Both the position numbers and the translations under genes were made by a program. The notes beneath the pieces were generated by a model that did no database searches, was not told the DNA's origin, and saw nothing but the letters and a program-made list of their open reading frames with translations. Below, in pieces: positions 40,695 through 51,366 of a DNA stretch of 56,031 nucleotides. Location: positions 1 through 56,031 of the forward strand of contig JAICOJ010000012.1 in NCBI GenBank assembly GCA_025930755.1, read 5' to 3'. Numbering within the stretch: the stretch's first letter is position 1; every line of letters starts with the position of its first letter. Source of the DNA: Gemmatimonadaceae bacterium (GTDB taxonomy: Bacteria > Gemmatimonadota > Gemmatimonadetes > Gemmatimonadales > Gemmatimonadaceae).

Positions 40695-43640
40695 ATGGCG
40701 ACCGTCTTTCACGCCGTCCACGAGACACGCTCGTTGACTCGCGCGCCCTCCCCATCGCCGTCACAATCCGAGGCCATCGAGGCCGCGCCCGGGCCTCTGC
40801 TGGTGCTTGCCGGCCCCGGCGCGGGAAAGACGTACTGTCTCATCGAGCGAATTCGCTTCCTGATCGAACAGTGCGGCGTTCCGCCATCGCGCGTCTGCGC
40901 GTTCACCTTCACCAACAAGGCCGCCGACGAGATCACGCATCGCCTCGAGCGCACGTTAGGCGACGGCGGGGGCGCCGTGAAGTCGGGAACCATCCACGCC
41001 TTTTGTGCCGAGCTGCTGCGCGAGCATGCGGCACGGGTGGGGCTGCCGCCCGGATTCGGCATCGCCGACGAGGACTATCAGCTCCACGTGCTGCGGCGGC
41101 TCGAAGGCCCCAAACCGTGGCATCGCGGGCTGCTCACGCAGTTCAGCGCGAACCGCTTCCGAAACACGGCGTTCGCGCATCATGAGAGCTACGAGCTCTT
41201 CGACCGCTACGAGCGTTTCCTCGCGCAGCGGAAGATGGTGGACTTCGACATGCTCGTCCTCAAGGCCGCCGAGCTGCTCGAGCACACGTCCGAGGCGAAG
41301 TCGATTCGGGCCCAGTGGGATGTGGTGCTCGTCGACGAATTCCAGGATCTGAACCCGGTCCAGTACCGCGTGATTCGCGAGCTGGCGCGCGATCACGAGC
41401 ATCTGTTCGCGGTGGGGGACCACGAGCAGTCGATCTACTCGTTCGCCGGCGCGGATCCGGCCGTCTTTCAGCGGATGCTCAACGACTTCCGGCTCGCGCG
41501 GAAGATTCGCCTCGAGGAAAACCGCCGCTGTCCCCGCGATGTCTTTGCCCTGGCGCGGCGGCTCGTGTCGATGAACACGCAGATGTTCGAGGACCTGCCG
41601 CCGCCACAGGCGAACCGCGCCTCGCGTTTTCAACCCACCGCGCTCTCCTTTCCGACCGACGACGCCGAACGCGAATGGATCGTCGAGGACATTCGCCGCG
41701 ATCGCTCGGAATGGGGACACGCCTGGGGTGAGATCGCGCTGCTCTACCGCACGAACGAGATGGGTGAAGCGCTCGAGGGCGCGTTTCTCAACGCCGGCAT
41801 CCCCTGTCGTCTCGCCCGTGGACGTGCCCTGGCCGAGGATCCGGTGGTCGGCTACGTGCTCGCCGCGCTGCGCGTGATCGCGTACCCCCACGACAGCGTG
41901 CACTGCGAGGCGTTCTTCGAGGCGGTACTCTCGAGGGTCCTCTTCGATCAGGCGCGTGTGCGCGCCGAGGAGACACGGCAGGACCTGCTGCGGCAGCTCT
42001 ACCATATTGCCGCGCAGGTGTCCCGCGCGGGCGAGGACGGCCGGCAGGTGCATCGCGCGCTCTCGCAGTGGCGGAATCTGCAAGCCATCGGGTGCCGCCA
42101 CACGTCGCTCGGCCCCCTGATCAACGACCTGCTGTCGCAGCGAGTCGGCCATCGCCGTTCCGTCCTCGAGGAGCGGCACGATGAGTTGAGCGATCCGCTC
42201 GACATGCCCGACGTCGTCGCGCTCAGCGACCGGCTGCGCGAGGCGCGTGCGCGCCGCGCGGCGATCTGTCTTCCGTTCATGGGCGGCGCGGAGATTCCAC
42301 TCAAAGGGATGCTCGTCGGCCTCGGCTTCGGCGAAATCCACGTCGGGAACGTGGTGATGCCGTGGTCGGAGCGCATCTCATCGCACGAGTGCAGGTCGGT
42401 CGGTCTCCCCATGGGATTGTTCAAGGCGGCCCAGCTCCTCGAGAGCCGCGACTTCGGCGTCCCCTTCGTCGACTTCACCGCGATCGATCTCGAGACCACC
42501 AGCGACGACGCGGAGACCGCGGAGATCGTCGAGATCGCGGCGGTGCGGGTTCGCGGGGGGAAGCCCTGCGAGGTCTTCAATGCTCTGGTGAAGCCGCGGG
42601 GCCGGATTCCCGCGCGATCCACCGAGATTCACGGGCTGCGCGATGCCGACGTCGAGGGGGCGTCGCGGTTCGAGGATGTCTGGCCCCACTTCCGCCGCTT
42701 TTGTGGCACCGATGTCGTCGCCGCGCATAACGGGTACGACTACGACTTCCGGATCCTGCGGCGCATGGTCAAGGCACTGGGCGCGCGCTTCGATCTCTGC
42801 ACGTACGACACCTTGCCGCTCGCCTGCGACCTGTACTCCACGAGCCACACGCTGCTCAATCTGGCGCGCACCTTCGGGATCGACCCGGGACGCTCGCACC
42901 GCGCCCTGGATGACGCGCGCGCGCTGGCGCACATCGTCGTGAAGCTCGACGAGGCCAAGCTCGCCCGGGCGCGCAAGAGCGCCCTGCTTCAGCTCCTCGG
43001 TCACCTCGGCGTCGCGCTGGCCCTGTGCGACGAGCGGACGCTCTGCCCGGAGGCCCTGCTGTTCCGCGACTTCTCCCGGCCCTTCGCGCTGGGCCGGTAC
43101 AGCGGCAGCCTGGAGTTCTACGAGGCTGAAGCGTCAGGCAACGAGGCGGTGCCCAGCGTCGATGAAGTGATCGAGGCACTGGGCGGCGCCAGGCTCATGA
43201 CGAGGATCCGGGCCGAGAAGACGGCGGACGAGCTCCATCCGACTGCGCTGCCGCGGCTGCGGCGCCTCGTCGAGCGCATTCCGGATGGGTCGCTCGGCGC
43301 GCAGATCACCGCGTTCCTCGAGTGTGCAGTGCTGTCGAAGTACGATGGCCCCGAGCCGGAGCGTGGCCGGGTGAACCTCCTGACGCTGCATTCGACGAAG
43401 GGGCTGGAGTTCTCTCGCGTGTACATCGTGGGCTCGGAGGACGCGCACCTCCCCGGGCGCACGGCGAACCGCGAGGCCTCGCCCGAGGAAGTCGAGGAAG
43501 CGCGGCGGCTGCTGTACGTTGGCATGACGCGCGTGAAGGACCGCCTTGTCCTGACGCACACGCGCTCGCGCGCCGGCCGGCCCGGTGGCGGCCATCGCTT
43601 TCTCGACGAGATGGGGTTGGCGCCGACCACGATGGCGTGA
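40695..43640 (+). CDS. UvrD/Rep-type superfamily 1 helicase with an inserted DEDDh exonuclease domain
   Basis: 981 residues. Helicase motifs: Walker A VLAGPGAGKTYCLIERI at about residue 36, motif Ia FTFTNKAADEI, motif II VLVDEFQDLNPVQ, motif III VGDHEQSIYSFAGAD, motif IV LEENRRCPRD, then after the insertion LTLHSTKGLEFSRVYIVG (motif V) and VGMTRVKDRL (motif VI). The insertion, residues about 590-765, is a DnaQ-like exonuclease with AIDLETTSDDAE (Asp598, Glu600), HNGYDYDFRIL (near 678) and GRSHRALDDARA (His735 region). It is probably a repair or recombination nuclease-helicase. It begins 39 bp after the kinase operon. Confidence 0.9.
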   Translation: MATVFHAVHETRSLTRAPSPSPSQSEAIEAAPGPLLVLAGPGAGKTYCLIERIRFLIEQCGVPPSRVCAFTFTNKAADEITHRLERTLGDGGGAVKSGTIHAFCAELLREHAARVGLPPGFGIADEDYQLHVLRRLEGPKPWHRGLLTQFSANRFRNTAFAHHESYELFDRYERFLAQRKMVDFDMLVLKAAELLEHTSEAKSIRAQWDVVLVDEFQDLNPVQYRVIRELARDHEHLFAVGDHEQSIYSFAGADPAVFQRMLNDFRLARKIRLEENRRCPRDVFALARRLVSMNTQMFEDLPPPQANRASRFQPTALSFPTDDAEREWIVEDIRRDRSEWGHAWGEIALLYRTNEMGEALEGAFLNAGIPCRLARGRALAEDPVVGYVLAALRVIAYPHDSVHCEAFFEAVLSRVLFDQARVRAEETRQDLLRQLYHIAAQVSRAGEDGRQVHRALSQWRNLQAIGCRHTSLGPLINDLLSQRVGHRRSVLEERHDELSDPLDMPDVVALSDRLREARARRAAICLPFMGGAEIPLKGMLVGLGFGEIHVGNVVMPWSERISSHECRSVGLPMGLFKAAQLLESRDFGVPFVDFTAIDLETTSDDAETAEIVEIAAVRVRGGKPCEVFNALVKPRGRIPARSTEIHGLRDADVEGASRFEDVWPHFRRFCGTDVVAAHNGYDYDFRILRRMVKALGARFDLCTYDTLPLACDLYSTSHTLLNLARTFGIDPGRSHRALDDARALAHIVVKLDEAKLARARKSALLQLLGHLGVALALCDERTLCPEALLFRDFSRPFALGRYSGSLEFYEAEASGNEAVPSVDEVIEALGGARLMTRIRAEKTADELHPTALPRLRRLVERIPDGSLGAQITAFLECAVLSKYDGPEPERGRVNLLTLHSTKGLEFSRVYIVGSEDAHLPGRTANREASPEEVEEARRLLYVGMTRVKDRLVLTHTRSRAGRPGGGHRFLDEMGLAPTTMA

Positions 43641-44299
43641 TGTGGCGCGTTCGCGTCGGCGATGAGGCGGTGACCGCCGAGCACGACTCGGCGGGCTCAT
43701 CGATCGCTTTCGTCTGCGCGCACGGCGCTGGCGGCCACATGGCCGATCGCGGCGTCCTCGCGGTGTCGCAGGCCATGCGGGCGCAGGGTGTGGACGTCGT
43801 TCGCTTCAACTTTCTCTACAAGGAGAAGCGGAGTGGCCGTCCCGATCCGATGCCGCTTCTCAGGAAGACCATCGAAGCAGTCGTCGCGCGAGCTCGCGAG
43901 GAGCTTCGCCCGGACGTCGTCATAATCGGTGGTCGCTCGATGGGTGGCCGTGCGGCCTCCATGCTCGCCGCCGATGGCTTCGCGTGCGATGGACTGCTCC
44001 TGCTCGCGTATCCTCTGCACCCGGCAGGCAAGCCCGATCAGCTCCGCGATGCACACCTGCCGAAGATCGAGACTCCTGTGCTCTGTCTGAACGGCACCCG
44101 CGATGCGCTCTGCAGACGCGACCTGATGGACGCCGTGCTCCAGCGTGTCGGCCCGAACTGGACGATGCACTGGCTCGACGGCGCCGACCACAGCTTTCAC
44201 GTGCTCAAGTCATCGGGGAGAACGGACGCCGAGGTGCTCTCGGAGATAGGGGAGACGAGCCGGGGGTGGGTGGAGCGACTCGCGCGGGTGCCCCGTTAG
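43640..44299 (+). CDS. alpha/beta hydrolase of the KANL3/Tex30 or dienelactone type
   Basis: 219 residues from an ATG overlapping the helicase stop by one base (TGATG). Triad: nucleophile in IIGGRSMGGRAAS, acid in LNGTRDALC, histidine in LDGADHSFHVL. The N-terminal HGAGGHMADR lies at the oxyanion position. The set is that of the Tex30/KANL3-like small serine hydrolases. The substrate is unknown. Its last 90 bp overlap the convergent protease gene. Confidence 0.87.
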   Translation: MWRVRVGDEAVTAEHDSAGSSIAFVCAHGAGGHMADRGVLAVSQAMRAQGVDVVRFNFLYKEKRSGRPDPMPLLRKTIEAVVARAREELRPDVVIIGGRSMGGRAASMLAADGFACDGLLLLAYPLHPAGKPDQLRDAHLPKIETPVLCLNGTRDALCRRDLMDAVLQRVGPNWTMHWLDGADHSFHVLKSSGRTDAEVLSEIGETSRGWVERLARVPR

Positions 44300-47191: not shown

Positions 47192-47902
47192 TTACGTCGA
47201 GCAGGCCCTCACGAACGCGGTGACCGCGCTGGGCCCGGAGCCACCGCCCGCGTCCTCGTCATGCTTGAAGAACACGTAGGCTTCGCTCCAGGTCTGGCTG
47301 TTCACGCACCTGGCCCACTCGCCTAACGCCCCATCATTGTAGTCGGGGCGGTGCAAGCGCAAGTACCCCCACGAGGCCGTCGCGTGGACCGGACACGTGA
47401 AGTCCTCCTGCTCGGCGAGACAGAGGGCAACGTCATGCTCCCGCAGCGCGGTGAAGACGTCGTCGTCGAACCAGCTCTCGTGGCGGAACTCGATCGTGAA
47501 TTTCCGATCCCGGGGCAGCAGGCCAAGGAAGCCTTTGAGGCGCGGCGTGTCCTTCTTCATGTTCGGCGGCAGCTGGAACAGGATCGGCCCCAGCCGGGTG
47601 CCGAGCGTCGAGGTGTTCTTCAGCAGGAAATCGACGCTGTCCGCGCACTCGGGCTTGAGCCGCGCGTAGTGCGTGATGCGCTGGCTCGCCTTGATCGAAA
47701 AGGTGAACTGATCGGGGACCTGCGCGGCCCAGTCCCGCAACACGTTCTCCTTCGGCAGCCGGTAGAACGTGTTGTTGATCTCGACGGTCGGAAACTTCGA
47801 GGCGTAGTACCCCAGCCAGCCGTCACTCTTCAGGTCGTCCGGATAGAACGACCCCTTCCACTCCTTGAACGCATAGCCACTCGTCCCCGCGAGCAGCCTC
47901 AT
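47192..47902 (-). CDS. DUF72 TIM-barrel protein
   Basis: 236 residues. The family opening GTSGYAFKEWKGSFYPDDL is clear, followed by FPTVEINNTFYRLP, FTFSIKASQRITHYARL, LGPILFQLPPNMKKD, FTIEFRHESWFD and YLRLHRPDYNDG. DUF72 proteins are TIM barrels of unknown enzymology found in many bacteria; they often lie next to Ku or DNA repair genes. Here the start overlaps the Ku stop (47899-47902), so DUF72 is made from the Ku transcript. Confidence 0.92.
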   Translation of the reverse strand: MRLLAGTSGYAFKEWKGSFYPDDLKSDGWLGYYASKFPTVEINNTFYRLPKENVLRDWAAQVPDQFTFSIKASQRITHYARLKPECADSVDFLLKNTSTLGTRLGPILFQLPPNMKKDTPRLKGFLGLLPRDRKFTIEFRHESWFDDDVFTALREHDVALCLAEQEDFTCPVHATASWGYLRLHRPDYNDGALGEWARCVNSQTWSEAYVFFKHDEDAGGGSGPSAVTAFVRACST

Positions 47903-48711
47903 GACACCATGCGCCCCGCTTTGGCCTCTTCGGTCTTGGTGGTCTTGGCCAGGCTCGCCTTCAGCGCTTCCATGAGGTCGAGGATCTTGCCGCTCGAGTC
48001 CGGCTGGACGTCCGAGGTGATGTCCTGACCTTCCACCTTCCGCTGGATCGCCTCGAGGACCCGCTCACGAACGGTGTCCTTGTACTTCTGCGGCTCGAAC
48101 GTCTCGTTCACGAGCTGCTCGATGAGCTGCTTGGCCAGCGCGAGCTCCGCCGGCTTCACCTCACCGGGCGGGACCGTAACCTCATGCGGGGGGCGCACCT
48201 CGTCAGCGTACTTGAGCTGCTCCATCGCGAGGATGCCGTTGAGCGGACGCAGCAGCACGAGGGTCTGCCCACCGCGCGCGGCGTATTGTCCGAGCGCCGC
48301 GCGACCGGTCTCCCGAAGAGCCTCGCACAGCAGGCGATATGCGCGGTCTCCTCCCTTATCCGGTCCCAGATAGTACACTTTGTCGACGTACTCCCGATCG
48401 ACCTTCTCGAGCGGGACGAACTCGACGACCTCGATCATCCCCGTCGCCTTTTCGTCCAGCGCCTTCAGCTCCTCGGCCGTGAAGACCACGTACTGGTCTT
48501 TCGCGAACTCGTATCCCTTGACGGTCTCGTCCCGTCCGACGATTTCGTTGTCCTTGGGACAGGTGTATTGCTGCTTGAGCCGCGTATTGCATTTCCTGTG
48601 GAGCATGTTGAACGACACGCTGCTCTTCGATTCCGATGACGAATAGAGGTTCACCGGAACGGAGACGAGGCCGAACGAGATCGTGGCGTTGGCGATGGAA
48701 CGAGGGGGCAT
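47899..48711 (-). CDS. ku: Ku protein (non-homologous end joining)
   Basis: 270 residues. The protein starts MPPRSIANATISFGLVSVPV, then has HRKCNTRLKQQYTCPKDNEIVG, VEFVPLEKVDREYVDKVYYLG and GKILDLMEALKASLAKT, the usual order of bacterial Ku. It forms a homodimeric ring on DNA ends and recruits LigD through its C-terminus. It is transcribed divergently from the LigD gene and continues into DUF72. Confidence 0.95.
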   Translation of the reverse strand: MPPRSIANATISFGLVSVPVNLYSSSESKSSVSFNMLHRKCNTRLKQQYTCPKDNEIVGRDETVKGYEFAKDQYVVFTAEELKALDEKATGMIEVVEFVPLEKVDREYVDKVYYLGPDKGGDRAYRLLCEALRETGRAALGQYAARGGQTLVLLRPLNGILAMEQLKYADEVRPPHEVTVPPGEVKPAELALAKQLIEQLVNETFEPQKYKDTVRERVLEAIQRKVEGQDITSDVQPDSSGKILDLMEALKASLAKTTKTEEAKAGRMVS

Positions 48712-48882: not shown

Positions 48883-51366
48883 ATGGGCACGGTTTCGCCC
48901 GTCCTCGGCCGCCTGTTCGTCGTGCACAAACACGCCGCCCGGCAGCTCCATTTCGACCTTCGCCTCGAGATGGAGGGCGTTCTGCGCTCGTGGGCCGTGC
49001 CGAAGGGCCCATCGTACGATCAGAACGACAAGCGCCTGGCGGTGCGGGTGGAGGATCACCCGATCGAGTACGGTGACTTCGAGGGGATGATCCCCAAGGG
49101 GAACTACGGAGCGGGCGCCGTCATCGTCTGGGACCGCGGCGAATGGGTGCCACTGGAGGATTGGCGCGAGGGTCTGGAGAAGGGGAAGCTCCTCTTCGAG
49201 CTCAAGGGCTATAAGCTCAAGGGGAAGTGGACGCTGGTGAAGATCAAGAAGAGCGAGCGCGACTGGCTGCTGATCAAGGAGCGCGACGCTTTCATGAAGT
49301 CCCCCGGCGACCAGTTCCCCGAGCAGTCGGTGCTATCCGGCGTCACCGTCGAGGAAATGTTGGCGGGCGACACGCCGGGCTCGCGGCTGCGCACAGCGGC
49401 GGAAAAGGCGGGCGCCGCGAAGTCCCGCGTCGACCCGCGCGTCGCGCAACCGATGCTCGCCGAAACGGCCGAGAAGGCATTCACGCGCGATGACTGGGTG
49501 TTCGAGCTCAAGCTCGACGGCTATCGCCTCATTGCGAGCAAGTCGAAGGGCGAGGCGCTCCTTCTCACGCGCAACGGCAACGACTACACGGCGGTCTTTC
49601 CAGAAATCGCGCGCGCGATCAAGGCGCTCCCGATCGATGAGTTCATCATCGACGGCGAGGTCGTGTGTCTGGATGGCGACGGGAAGCCGAGCTTTGCCCG
49701 TCTCCAGCGGCGTGGACGCCTGCAGTCCGACATCGACATTCGGCGCGCGGCGGTCGAGCTGCCCGCGACGTTCTACGCCTTCGATTTGCTCGCGGTCGAT
49801 GATCTCGATGTTCGTCCGCTGCCTCTCGTCACCCGGAAGGAGCTCCTGGCGCAAGCGGTGCCGAGCCTCGGCCCGGTGCGACTGCTCGAGCATATCGACC
49901 GGGAAGGGGAAGCGTTTCTCGACCAGGTGGAGAAGCTCGGCCTGGAGGGGATCATTGCCAAGAAGGCGGACGCGCCGTACCGGCCGGGCCGCACGTCGCA
50001 CTGGCTCAAGATCAAGGCGGAAGCGACCGGTGACTTCGTGATCGTCGGCTTCACGCAGCCCAAGGGCTCACGTAGCCACCTCGGCGCACTGCAGCTCGGG
50101 GACTACGTGAATGGCGAGCTGGTGTATGCCGGTCGTGTGGGCACGGGCTTCAACGACCAGCTGCTGCGCGAGCTTGGTGATCTGCTGGCGCCGATCGTCC
50201 GGGCCACGCCGCCGTGCCGGGGACCGGTGATCGAAGGCCTCGCGACCGACACGATTCCGGAGATCAGGACGACGACGTGGGTGGAGCCGATGTACGTCTG
50301 CGAGGTGCGCTTCCGGGAATGGACGCCCGATGGGCTGCTCCGCCATGCGGCCTATCTGCGCGCCCGCTCCGACAAGCGCCCGCAGGACTGCGTGCGTCAG
50401 GGCGTGGTGCGCGAAGCGGAGGTGGCACCGACCGTGGTGAGTGAGCCACCGCCGTCGGCGCCGAAGGAGCCGGTCAGGAAGACGATCAGCTTCTCGAATC
50501 TCAAGAAGGTGTACTGGCCGGCCGAGCGGTATACGAAGGGCGACATGATCGACTACTACCGGGCGGTGTCGCGGTGGATTCTGCCATATCTCCGCAATCG
50601 TCCGGTGGTGATGACGCGTTTTCCCGATGGGATCGATGGAAAGTCCTTTTATCAGAAGGATGCGCCCGAGTTCGCGCCCGAGTGGATGCGGACCGTGCGC
50701 ATCTGGAGTGAGGACACGCAGCGCGAGATTCGGTACTTCGTGTGCGACGATGAGGAGTCCTTGCTGTACGTCGCCAATCTCGGGACGATTCCGCTGCACA
50801 TCTGGGCGAGCCGGGTGGGCTCGCTCGAGCTGTGCGATTGGTGCGTGCTCGATCTGGATCCCAAGGAGGCGCCGTTCTCGGATGTCATCCGGTGTGCGCG
50901 GGCGCTTCATCAGTTATGTCAAGCGGTGGGACTGTCGAGCTACATCAAGACGACGGGGAAGACGGGACTGCACATCATGCTTCCGCTCGGGCGGCAATGC
51001 ACTTATGCCCAGTCGCGCACGTTAGGCGAGCTGCTCGCGCGTGTGGTGCTCCGCGAGCTCACGGACATTGCGACGATCACCCGTCACGTCACGAAGCGCG
51101 GCGACAAGGTGTATCTCGACTATCTGCAGAACCGGCACGGTCAGACGATCGTCGCGCCGTTCAGCGTGAGACCGTTGCCCGGCGCGACGGTGTCGATGCC
51201 GTTGCTCTGGGACGAGGTCAATGATTCACTCGATCCACGCGCGTTCACGATCAAGACGGCGATCGAGCGCCTGGAGAGCCTCGCGGGCGATCCGGTGGCG
51301 CCGGTGCTCGAGGAAAAGCCCGACCTGGGGCAAGTTCTCGAAAGGCTCGCGGATCTGATGGAATAG
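48883..51366 (+). CDS. ligD: multifunctional DNA ligase D (phosphoesterase-ligase-polymerase)
   Basis: 827 residues from the ATG at 48883, but see the finding on the start. Domains: phosphoesterase (FVVHKHAARQLHFDLRLEME, AVRVEDHPIEYGDFEGMIP), ATP-dependent ligase with adenylated Lys210 (FELKLDGYRL) and motifs IDGEVV and LEGIIAKKADAPY, then a primase-polymerase (FSNLKKVYWPAERYTKGDMI, CVLDLDPKE, TTGKTGLHIMLPL). With the divergent Ku it forms the minimal end-joining set: end processing, gap filling and sealing. Its TAG lies in the arm of the following palindrome. Confidence 0.95.
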   Translation: MGTVSPVLGRLFVVHKHAARQLHFDLRLEMEGVLRSWAVPKGPSYDQNDKRLAVRVEDHPIEYGDFEGMIPKGNYGAGAVIVWDRGEWVPLEDWREGLEKGKLLFELKGYKLKGKWTLVKIKKSERDWLLIKERDAFMKSPGDQFPEQSVLSGVTVEEMLAGDTPGSRLRTAAEKAGAAKSRVDPRVAQPMLAETAEKAFTRDDWVFELKLDGYRLIASKSKGEALLLTRNGNDYTAVFPEIARAIKALPIDEFIIDGEVVCLDGDGKPSFARLQRRGRLQSDIDIRRAAVELPATFYAFDLLAVDDLDVRPLPLVTRKELLAQAVPSLGPVRLLEHIDREGEAFLDQVEKLGLEGIIAKKADAPYRPGRTSHWLKIKAEATGDFVIVGFTQPKGSRSHLGALQLGDYVNGELVYAGRVGTGFNDQLLRELGDLLAPIVRATPPCRGPVIEGLATDTIPEIRTTTWVEPMYVCEVRFREWTPDGLLRHAAYLRARSDKRPQDCVRQGVVREAEVAPTVVSEPPPSAPKEPVRKTISFSNLKKVYWPAERYTKGDMIDYYRAVSRWILPYLRNRPVVMTRFPDGIDGKSFYQKDAPEFAPEWMRTVRIWSEDTQREIRYFVCDDEESLLYVANLGTIPLHIWASRVGSLELCDWCVLDLDPKEAPFSDVIRCARALHQLCQAVGLSSYIKTTGKTGLHIMLPLGRQCTYAQSRTLGELLARVVLRELTDIATITRHVTKRGDKVYLDYLQNRHGQTIVAPFSVRPLPGATVSMPLLWDEVNDSLDPRAFTIKTAIERLESLAGDPVAPVLEEKPDLGQVLERLADLME

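Follow-up and report, generated by a model that had tools for sequence, protein, structure and literature searches.

A UvrD-type helicase with a DEDDh exonuclease nested in its 2B region, encoded near Ku and LigD in Gemmatimonadota

End joining in bacteria is usually attributed to Ku and LigD alone, and the opening and trimming of the ends is unsettled. A motor and a nuclease are combined in a single chain in AddA, RecB and AdnA, proteins of the double-strand break context that carry a PD-(D/E)xK nuclease at the C-terminus of a UvrD-type motor. In ExoDinG, an SF2 (XPD-like) motor with FeS and Arch domains follows an N-terminal exonuclease (PMC11981726). Among helicases of the UvrD type, unwinding by mycobacterial UvrD1 is described as dependent on Ku (Sinha 2007, according to PMC3656841). 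Here we examine a gene in a stretch of 56,031 nucleotides from a Gemmatimonadaceae bacterium (the window), whose predicted product carries a DEDDh exonuclease inside a UvrD-type helicase.

The gene is a single open reading frame with an ATG start (Table 1). An earlier note, made from the sequence alone, had placed a complete DnaQ-like domain between the helicase motifs, inside the second RecA-like half and not as an end fusion. The order of the Pfam matches and the alignments with UvrD proteins confirmed this arrangement. The profile searches that the note had proposed gave three matches, all far above cut-off: UvrD-helicase at residues 22-265 (E 2.7e-61), RNase_T (PF00929) at residues 596-747 (E 8.8e-25) and the end part of UvrD_C, with its best stretch at residues 869-957 (E 3.3e-30). 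The alignment with E. coli UvrD covers residues 21-420 and 870-959 of the protein, and that with the UvrD of the same genome covers residues 19-411 and 871-960. The unaligned gap of about 460 residues between these blocks corresponds to the 2B region, usually about 175 residues long, with the exonuclease inside. Motifs I-IV, with what remains of the first 2A segment, are situated N-terminal of the gap, and motifs V and VI C-terminal. These alignments place the exonuclease as an insertion in 2B, 2B being itself inserted in the second RecA-like domain (2A).

Table 1. Features of the nested helicase-exonuclease gene and its neighbours, in positions of the window.
Feature	Position	Strand	Evidence
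Whole gene, UvrD-type SF1 helicase with nested DEDDh exonuclease	40695..43640	+	ORF of 981 aa, Pfam
Helicase 1A/1B and first part of 2A, residues 19-403	40749..41903	+	Pfam, UvrD alignments, invariant columns
First part of 2B region, residues 404-592	41904..42470	+	Alignment to own UvrD, AlphaFold2, profile search
DEDDh (RNase_T / PolC-type) exonuclease, residues 593-760	42471..42974	+	Pfam, 2p1j alignment, invariant columns, AlphaFold2
Remainder of 2B region, helices back to 2A, residues 761-870	42975..43304	+	Alignment to own UvrD, AlphaFold2
End of 2A with motifs V and VI, residues 871-960	43305..43574	+	Pfam, UvrD alignments
Abhydrolase_11 gene, directly downstream of helicase gene	43652..44299 (start codon approximate)	+	Domain match
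DUF72 gene, conserved neighbourhood member	47192..47902	-	Domain match, locus comparison
Ku (PF02735, E 7e-49), convergent with helicase gene	47899..48711	-	Domain match
LigD: phosphoesterase 15-120, ligase 190-498, primase-polymerase 551-804	48883..51366	+	Domain match

The first helicase segment contains the Walker A sequence GPGAGKT, DEFQD, GDHEQSIY and EENRR, and the last contains motif V (LLTLHSTKGLEF) and motif VI (EARRLLYVGMTR). Walker A, a DEAD-like motif II and motifs III-VI in the order of UvrD place the motor with the UvrD/Rep helicases of SF1A. The first part of the 2B region is helical, with a small strand/helix element at its end; it has no Pfam match, and the GIG motif of the UvrD 2B was not recognisable there. 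Within the strand/helix element before the exonuclease (residues 523-592, 42261-42470), likewise unmatched in Pfam, F576-K577 and Q580 are invariant. Searches of Pfam and profile searches against the PDB found no known domain in the 2B flanks, and we rejected the idea of duplicated 2B elements flanking the exonuclease, the profile comparison giving a probability of 9%. In an AlphaFold2 model based on 40 sequences (pLDDT 85.5, pTM 0.70), helices are present on both flanks of the exonuclease, which itself scores mostly pLDDT 85-97 per 10-residue block with one dip to 77.

In an alignment of the exonuclease with that of PolC (2p1j, E 5e-27), residues D598, E600, D684, H735 and D740 are in register. 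These five make up the DEDDh set, are located within the RNase_T fold and are invariant in 40 aligned Gemmatimonadota homologues, in agreement with the prior assignment of Asp598, Glu600 and His735 as catalytic residues. Invariant residues of the helicase in the same 40 homologues are G44-K45-T46, D214-E215-F-Q217-D218, Q245, R278, T897, K902, T945 and R946. When the window protein was compared with its nearest homologue (L009, 82% identical), amino-acid differences amounted to 13.7% in the exonuclease and 16.6% in the helicase, with 52 synonymous changes. Constraint on the exonuclease is thus no weaker than that on the helicase, and the exonuclease is under purifying selection. Taking into account this constraint and the invariance of the motifs, we consider the nested helicase-exonuclease to be real and maintained. 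The same data bear on the possibility that the protein is an ordinary motor with a merely proofreading or regulatory exonuclease, the nesting having arisen neutrally when a domain was inserted long ago into a tolerant 2B. The 2B of Rep and UvrD is dispensable or autoinhibitory, and this region has also taken an exonuclease in a form found in Clostridia and Bacteroidota, possibly independently, both of which would fit a neutral insertion. The invariant catalytic residues and the constraint on the exonuclease domain, however, argue against it, and we regard it as highly unlikely.

In order to survey the phylogenetic range, as the earlier note had suggested, 249 Gemmatimonadota genomes from 112 genera were searched with a profile of the middle region of the protein. 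The family was found in 59 of the genomes and 33 of the genera, all in one class and with a single copy per genome. A contig search gave ten full-length relatives, every one from Gemmatimonadota, and the protein tree mostly follows the bacterial families. The range proved wider than had been assumed, as the architecture also occurs in Clostridia and Bacteroidota.

The most informative clue is one that the earlier note had missed: Ku and LigD are situated 4 kb downstream of the helicase gene, and this linkage is conserved in many genera. The order in the window is helicase, Abhydrolase_11, other genes, DUF72, Ku and LigD, and the usual order of the locus is helicase >, (abhydrolase >), DUF72 <, Ku <, LigD >. 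When 35 loci were compared, only LigD, Ku, DUF72 and an ORF cluster at the Abhydrolase_11 position were neighbours in at least 13. In 15 of the 59 carriers (the window and 14 genomes), the helicase is linked to the bacterial NHEJ machinery (Ku/LigD), with Ku on the same contig at a distance, measured from the 2B segment, of 1.3-10.3 kb. In one further carrier Ku is found at 18.8 kb, and each of these 16 Ku genes lies downstream of the helicase gene in convergent orientation. Linkage to Ku is usually accompanied by DUF72 and LigD, extends over two bacterial families and is seen in each of the two major clades of the protein tree. In many carriers, including the complete genomes G157 and G165, Ku is far from the helicase.

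Several further observations concern these neighbours. The abhydrolase of the window was missed by a simple gene caller, and a separate search matched Abhydrolase_11 in 16 loci; the gene follows the helicase in many loci, some not near Ku, and has no known link to DNA repair. In the LigD of the window, the phosphoesterase comes first, followed by the ligase and then by the primase/polymerase. The same genome has a second Ku gene on another contig (G000:C78:42725-43258). In the carrier G132 (L126), where Ku was not matched, a DUF72 gene is still found two genes from the helicase, apparently left over from the Ku/LigD locus.

We also compared the contents of the genomes, in phylogenetic profiles of Ku and AddAB that do not constitute independent data. 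Ku was found in 151 of the 249 genomes, in 55 of the 59 carriers and 96 of the 190 non-carriers; many genomes encode Ku without the fusion, and four carriers (G016, G015, G132 and G178) gave no Ku match. PDDEXK_1, the nuclease of AddAB, RecB and AdnAB, gave strong matches (E below 1e-20) in 2 of the 59 carriers versus 110 of the 190 non-carriers, and PDDEXK_1 (PF12705) had no match in the genome of the window. Much of this exclusion reflects phylogeny, since the other families of the class are generally AddAB-positive and fusion-negative. Within mixed genera, among those listed, the AddAB contrasts were 6 to 0 in the direction of replacement (p 0.03) and the Ku contrasts were 4 to 1, which is not significant. 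The near-exclusion with AddAB suggests that the nested protein is the main break-processing motor-nuclease in its carriers.

These profiles raised the possibility of a general replacement of AddAB, in which the protein would resect breaks for recombination and degrade foreign DNA, its neighbourhood with Ku and LigD being a loose 'repair island'. The strong exclusion with AddAB-type nucleases and the single copy per genome are consistent with this. On the other hand, close relatives of many carriers have neither the fusion nor AddAB, the linkage to Ku and LigD is specific, and the polarity of the exonuclease is unfavourable. A 3'-5' exonuclease leaves no 3' tails for RecA and is suited to trimming 3' ends that are damaged or carry flaps. 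As it would trim the very strand needed by RecA, it is doubtful that the protein fully takes the part of AddAB in recombination, and we consider this replacement unlikely.

Our preferred interpretation is a single-chain helicase-exonuclease for DNA double-strand ends, most likely acting in or beside Ku-LigD end joining and serving as the break-processing motor-nuclease where AddAB, RecBCD and AdnAB are absent. We estimate its probability at rather below even odds, about 0.45. By analogy with its family, the UvrD-type motor would move 3'-5' along one strand and open the duplex. The DEDDh exonuclease, carried on 2B, which faces the duplex in UvrD, would then remove 3' nucleotides from the freed strand. 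Ku may load the helicase-exonuclease at the end, as for mycobacterial UvrD1, and the 3' trimming would ready the ends for filling and sealing by LigD. In genomes without AddAB, RecBCD or AdnAB, the nested protein would be the motor-nuclease that processes breaks. A role in or beside Ku-LigD joining is the best supported, because 3' trimming suits filling and sealing, Ku and LigD are neighbours, and UvrD1 provides a precedent. Against it stands the convergent orientation of the helicase gene and Ku, which are therefore not co-transcribed. The carriers with a distant or unmatched Ku, the Ku-encoding genomes that have no fusion and the non-significant Ku contrasts within genera also speak against it.

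The domain content would also suit a one-protein excision machine for mismatch- or nick-directed repair, with a motor that peels a strand from a nick and a DEDDh domain that digests it. In E. coli mismatch repair, UvrD works with the DEDDh exonucleases ExoI and ExoX, and a protein combining these jobs would be an exact fit to the domains observed. However, the genome of the window retains two ordinary UvrD-like helicases, and also a separate DnaQ-like protein. The conserved neighbours are Ku and LigD and not mut genes, and mismatch repair offers no reason for the near-exclusion with AddAB. We therefore find an excision machine improbable.

A more far-reaching version of the end-joining role would make the protein a third dedicated component of the pathway, a motor-exonuclease loaded by Ku. 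It would unwind and trim 3' ends ahead of sealing by LigD and, throughout a bacterial group, would stand in for AddAB and RecBCD as the main motor of break processing. This we propose only tentatively, and hold it to be rather unlikely. A conserved helicase-exonuclease beside Ku and LigD is nevertheless a concrete candidate for the step of end opening and trimming, and, if true, the proposal would account for the many Gemmatimonadota that live without AddAB, RecBCD or AdnAB. Since 2B is the subdomain that gates unwinding in UvrD, an exonuclease placed on it would be a natural design to couple unwinding with trimming.

A tblastn hit beyond the Gemmatimonadota pointed to a protein of 828 residues in Acetoanaerobium (Clostridia), whose domains follow one another in the same order. 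Similar proteins are found in Phocaeicola, Chryseobacterium and Prevotella, and a copy in Bacteroides fragilis is split over two overlapping ORFs. In RefSeq the Clostridia/Bacteroidota forms are labelled "3'-5' exonuclease" or "ATP-dependent helicase", and their DEDDh residues are intact. Between 2A and the exonuclease they have about 130-140 aa fewer, and the end of the first 2A segment is separated from the first catalytic Asp by about 62-67 residues, versus 203 in the window protein. They form a separate clade in the tree of the helicase core and in that of the exonuclease, and a topology uniting both nested forms in one clade is not rejected (p-AU 0.245). The nested architecture is thus present in databases and apparently undescribed; no paper describing a UvrD with an internal DnaQ domain was found in the open literature, most subscription journals being outside the search.

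The Bacteroidota forms are plasmid-borne, and two of them have Fic/RhuM genes and recombinases as neighbours. In Phocaeicola (L106:3009-6595) and B. fragilis (L110:3012-6587), the nested helicase is part of a plasmid cassette with Fic and RhuM, with recombinase genes nearby. In Prevotella sp. E2-28 (L109:66-10392), the nested helicase shares a run of genes with an FtsK-like translocase, a protein phosphatase 2C and a member of the formylglycine-generating-enzyme family, and the group may represent a multi-gene system not yet described. The clostridial form (L105:2857-5343) matches the PADLOC model of RTasHel, a reverse-transcriptase-associated helicase, over its full length (436 bits), with the exonuclease as an extra insertion. 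A viral origin or spread of the nested protein was considered and rejected, as a tblastn search on phages gave no record covering 80% of the protein. The long inserts in UvrDs on the viral contigs L089, L097, L098 and L103 are intein-like, situated near motif III, and are not exonucleases; some have a GIY-YIG-like stretch. These four contigs were the ones read; L099-L101 gave matches of the same length.

The protein might be one of defence or plasmid maintenance, like the GajB-type or reverse-transcriptase-associated UvrD helicases. The best PADLOC matches are indeed the GajB and RTasHel helicases, and the plasmid settings of the Bacteroidota forms point the same way. The PADLOC matches, however, cover the helicase alone, as expected for any UvrD, and the Gemmatimonadota gene has a conserved repair neighbourhood without defence genes. 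We consider such a function very improbable.

Compared with known systems, the window protein shares all helicase motifs and the order 1A-1B-2A-2B-2A with UvrD/PcrA/Rep and UvrD1. It differs from these helicases in the exonuclease within an enlarged 2B, in the absence of a recognisable GIG motif and in the absence of a UvrD-type C-terminal extension; its best score against the PcrA/UvrD/Rep equivalogs was 288 bits (TIGR01073), versus NCBIfam cut-offs of 911-1168. Among solved structures, Foldseek matched UvrD/PcrA/Rep/UvrD1 and AdnAB/AddAB/RecB, with no nested exonuclease named among the best 50. AddA, RecB and AdnA likewise combine a nuclease with a UvrD-type motor in a single polypeptide, share the double-strand break context and are nearly mutually exclusive with the window protein in genomes. 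In contrast to their C-terminal nuclease, that of the window protein is an internal DEDDh domain. PF12705 has no match in the protein, the NCBIfam equivalogs of AddA and RecB gave 132 bits versus 708 and 103 versus 696, and no AddB- or RecC-like partner gene was seen beside the helicase. ExoDinG likewise joins a helicase and a DnaQ-like exonuclease, but TIGR01407 matches solely the exonuclease of the window protein (residues 594-768). The differences from AddA/RecB and DinG-type proteins drawn in the earlier note are thus borne out, and its 'unwind-and-trim' activity is plausible from the domains present. Its view of a distinct enzyme stands with respect to AddA, RecB and ExoDinG, but the protein is not unique. 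The unnamed Clostridia/Bacteroidota proteins (L105-L109) have the same UvrD-helicase, RNase_T nested in the 2B region and UvrD_C, and, unlike the window gene, are not near Ku in the loci read. The nested protein would thus be a helicase-nuclease in kind, distinct from AddA/RecB/AdnA and from ExoDinG.
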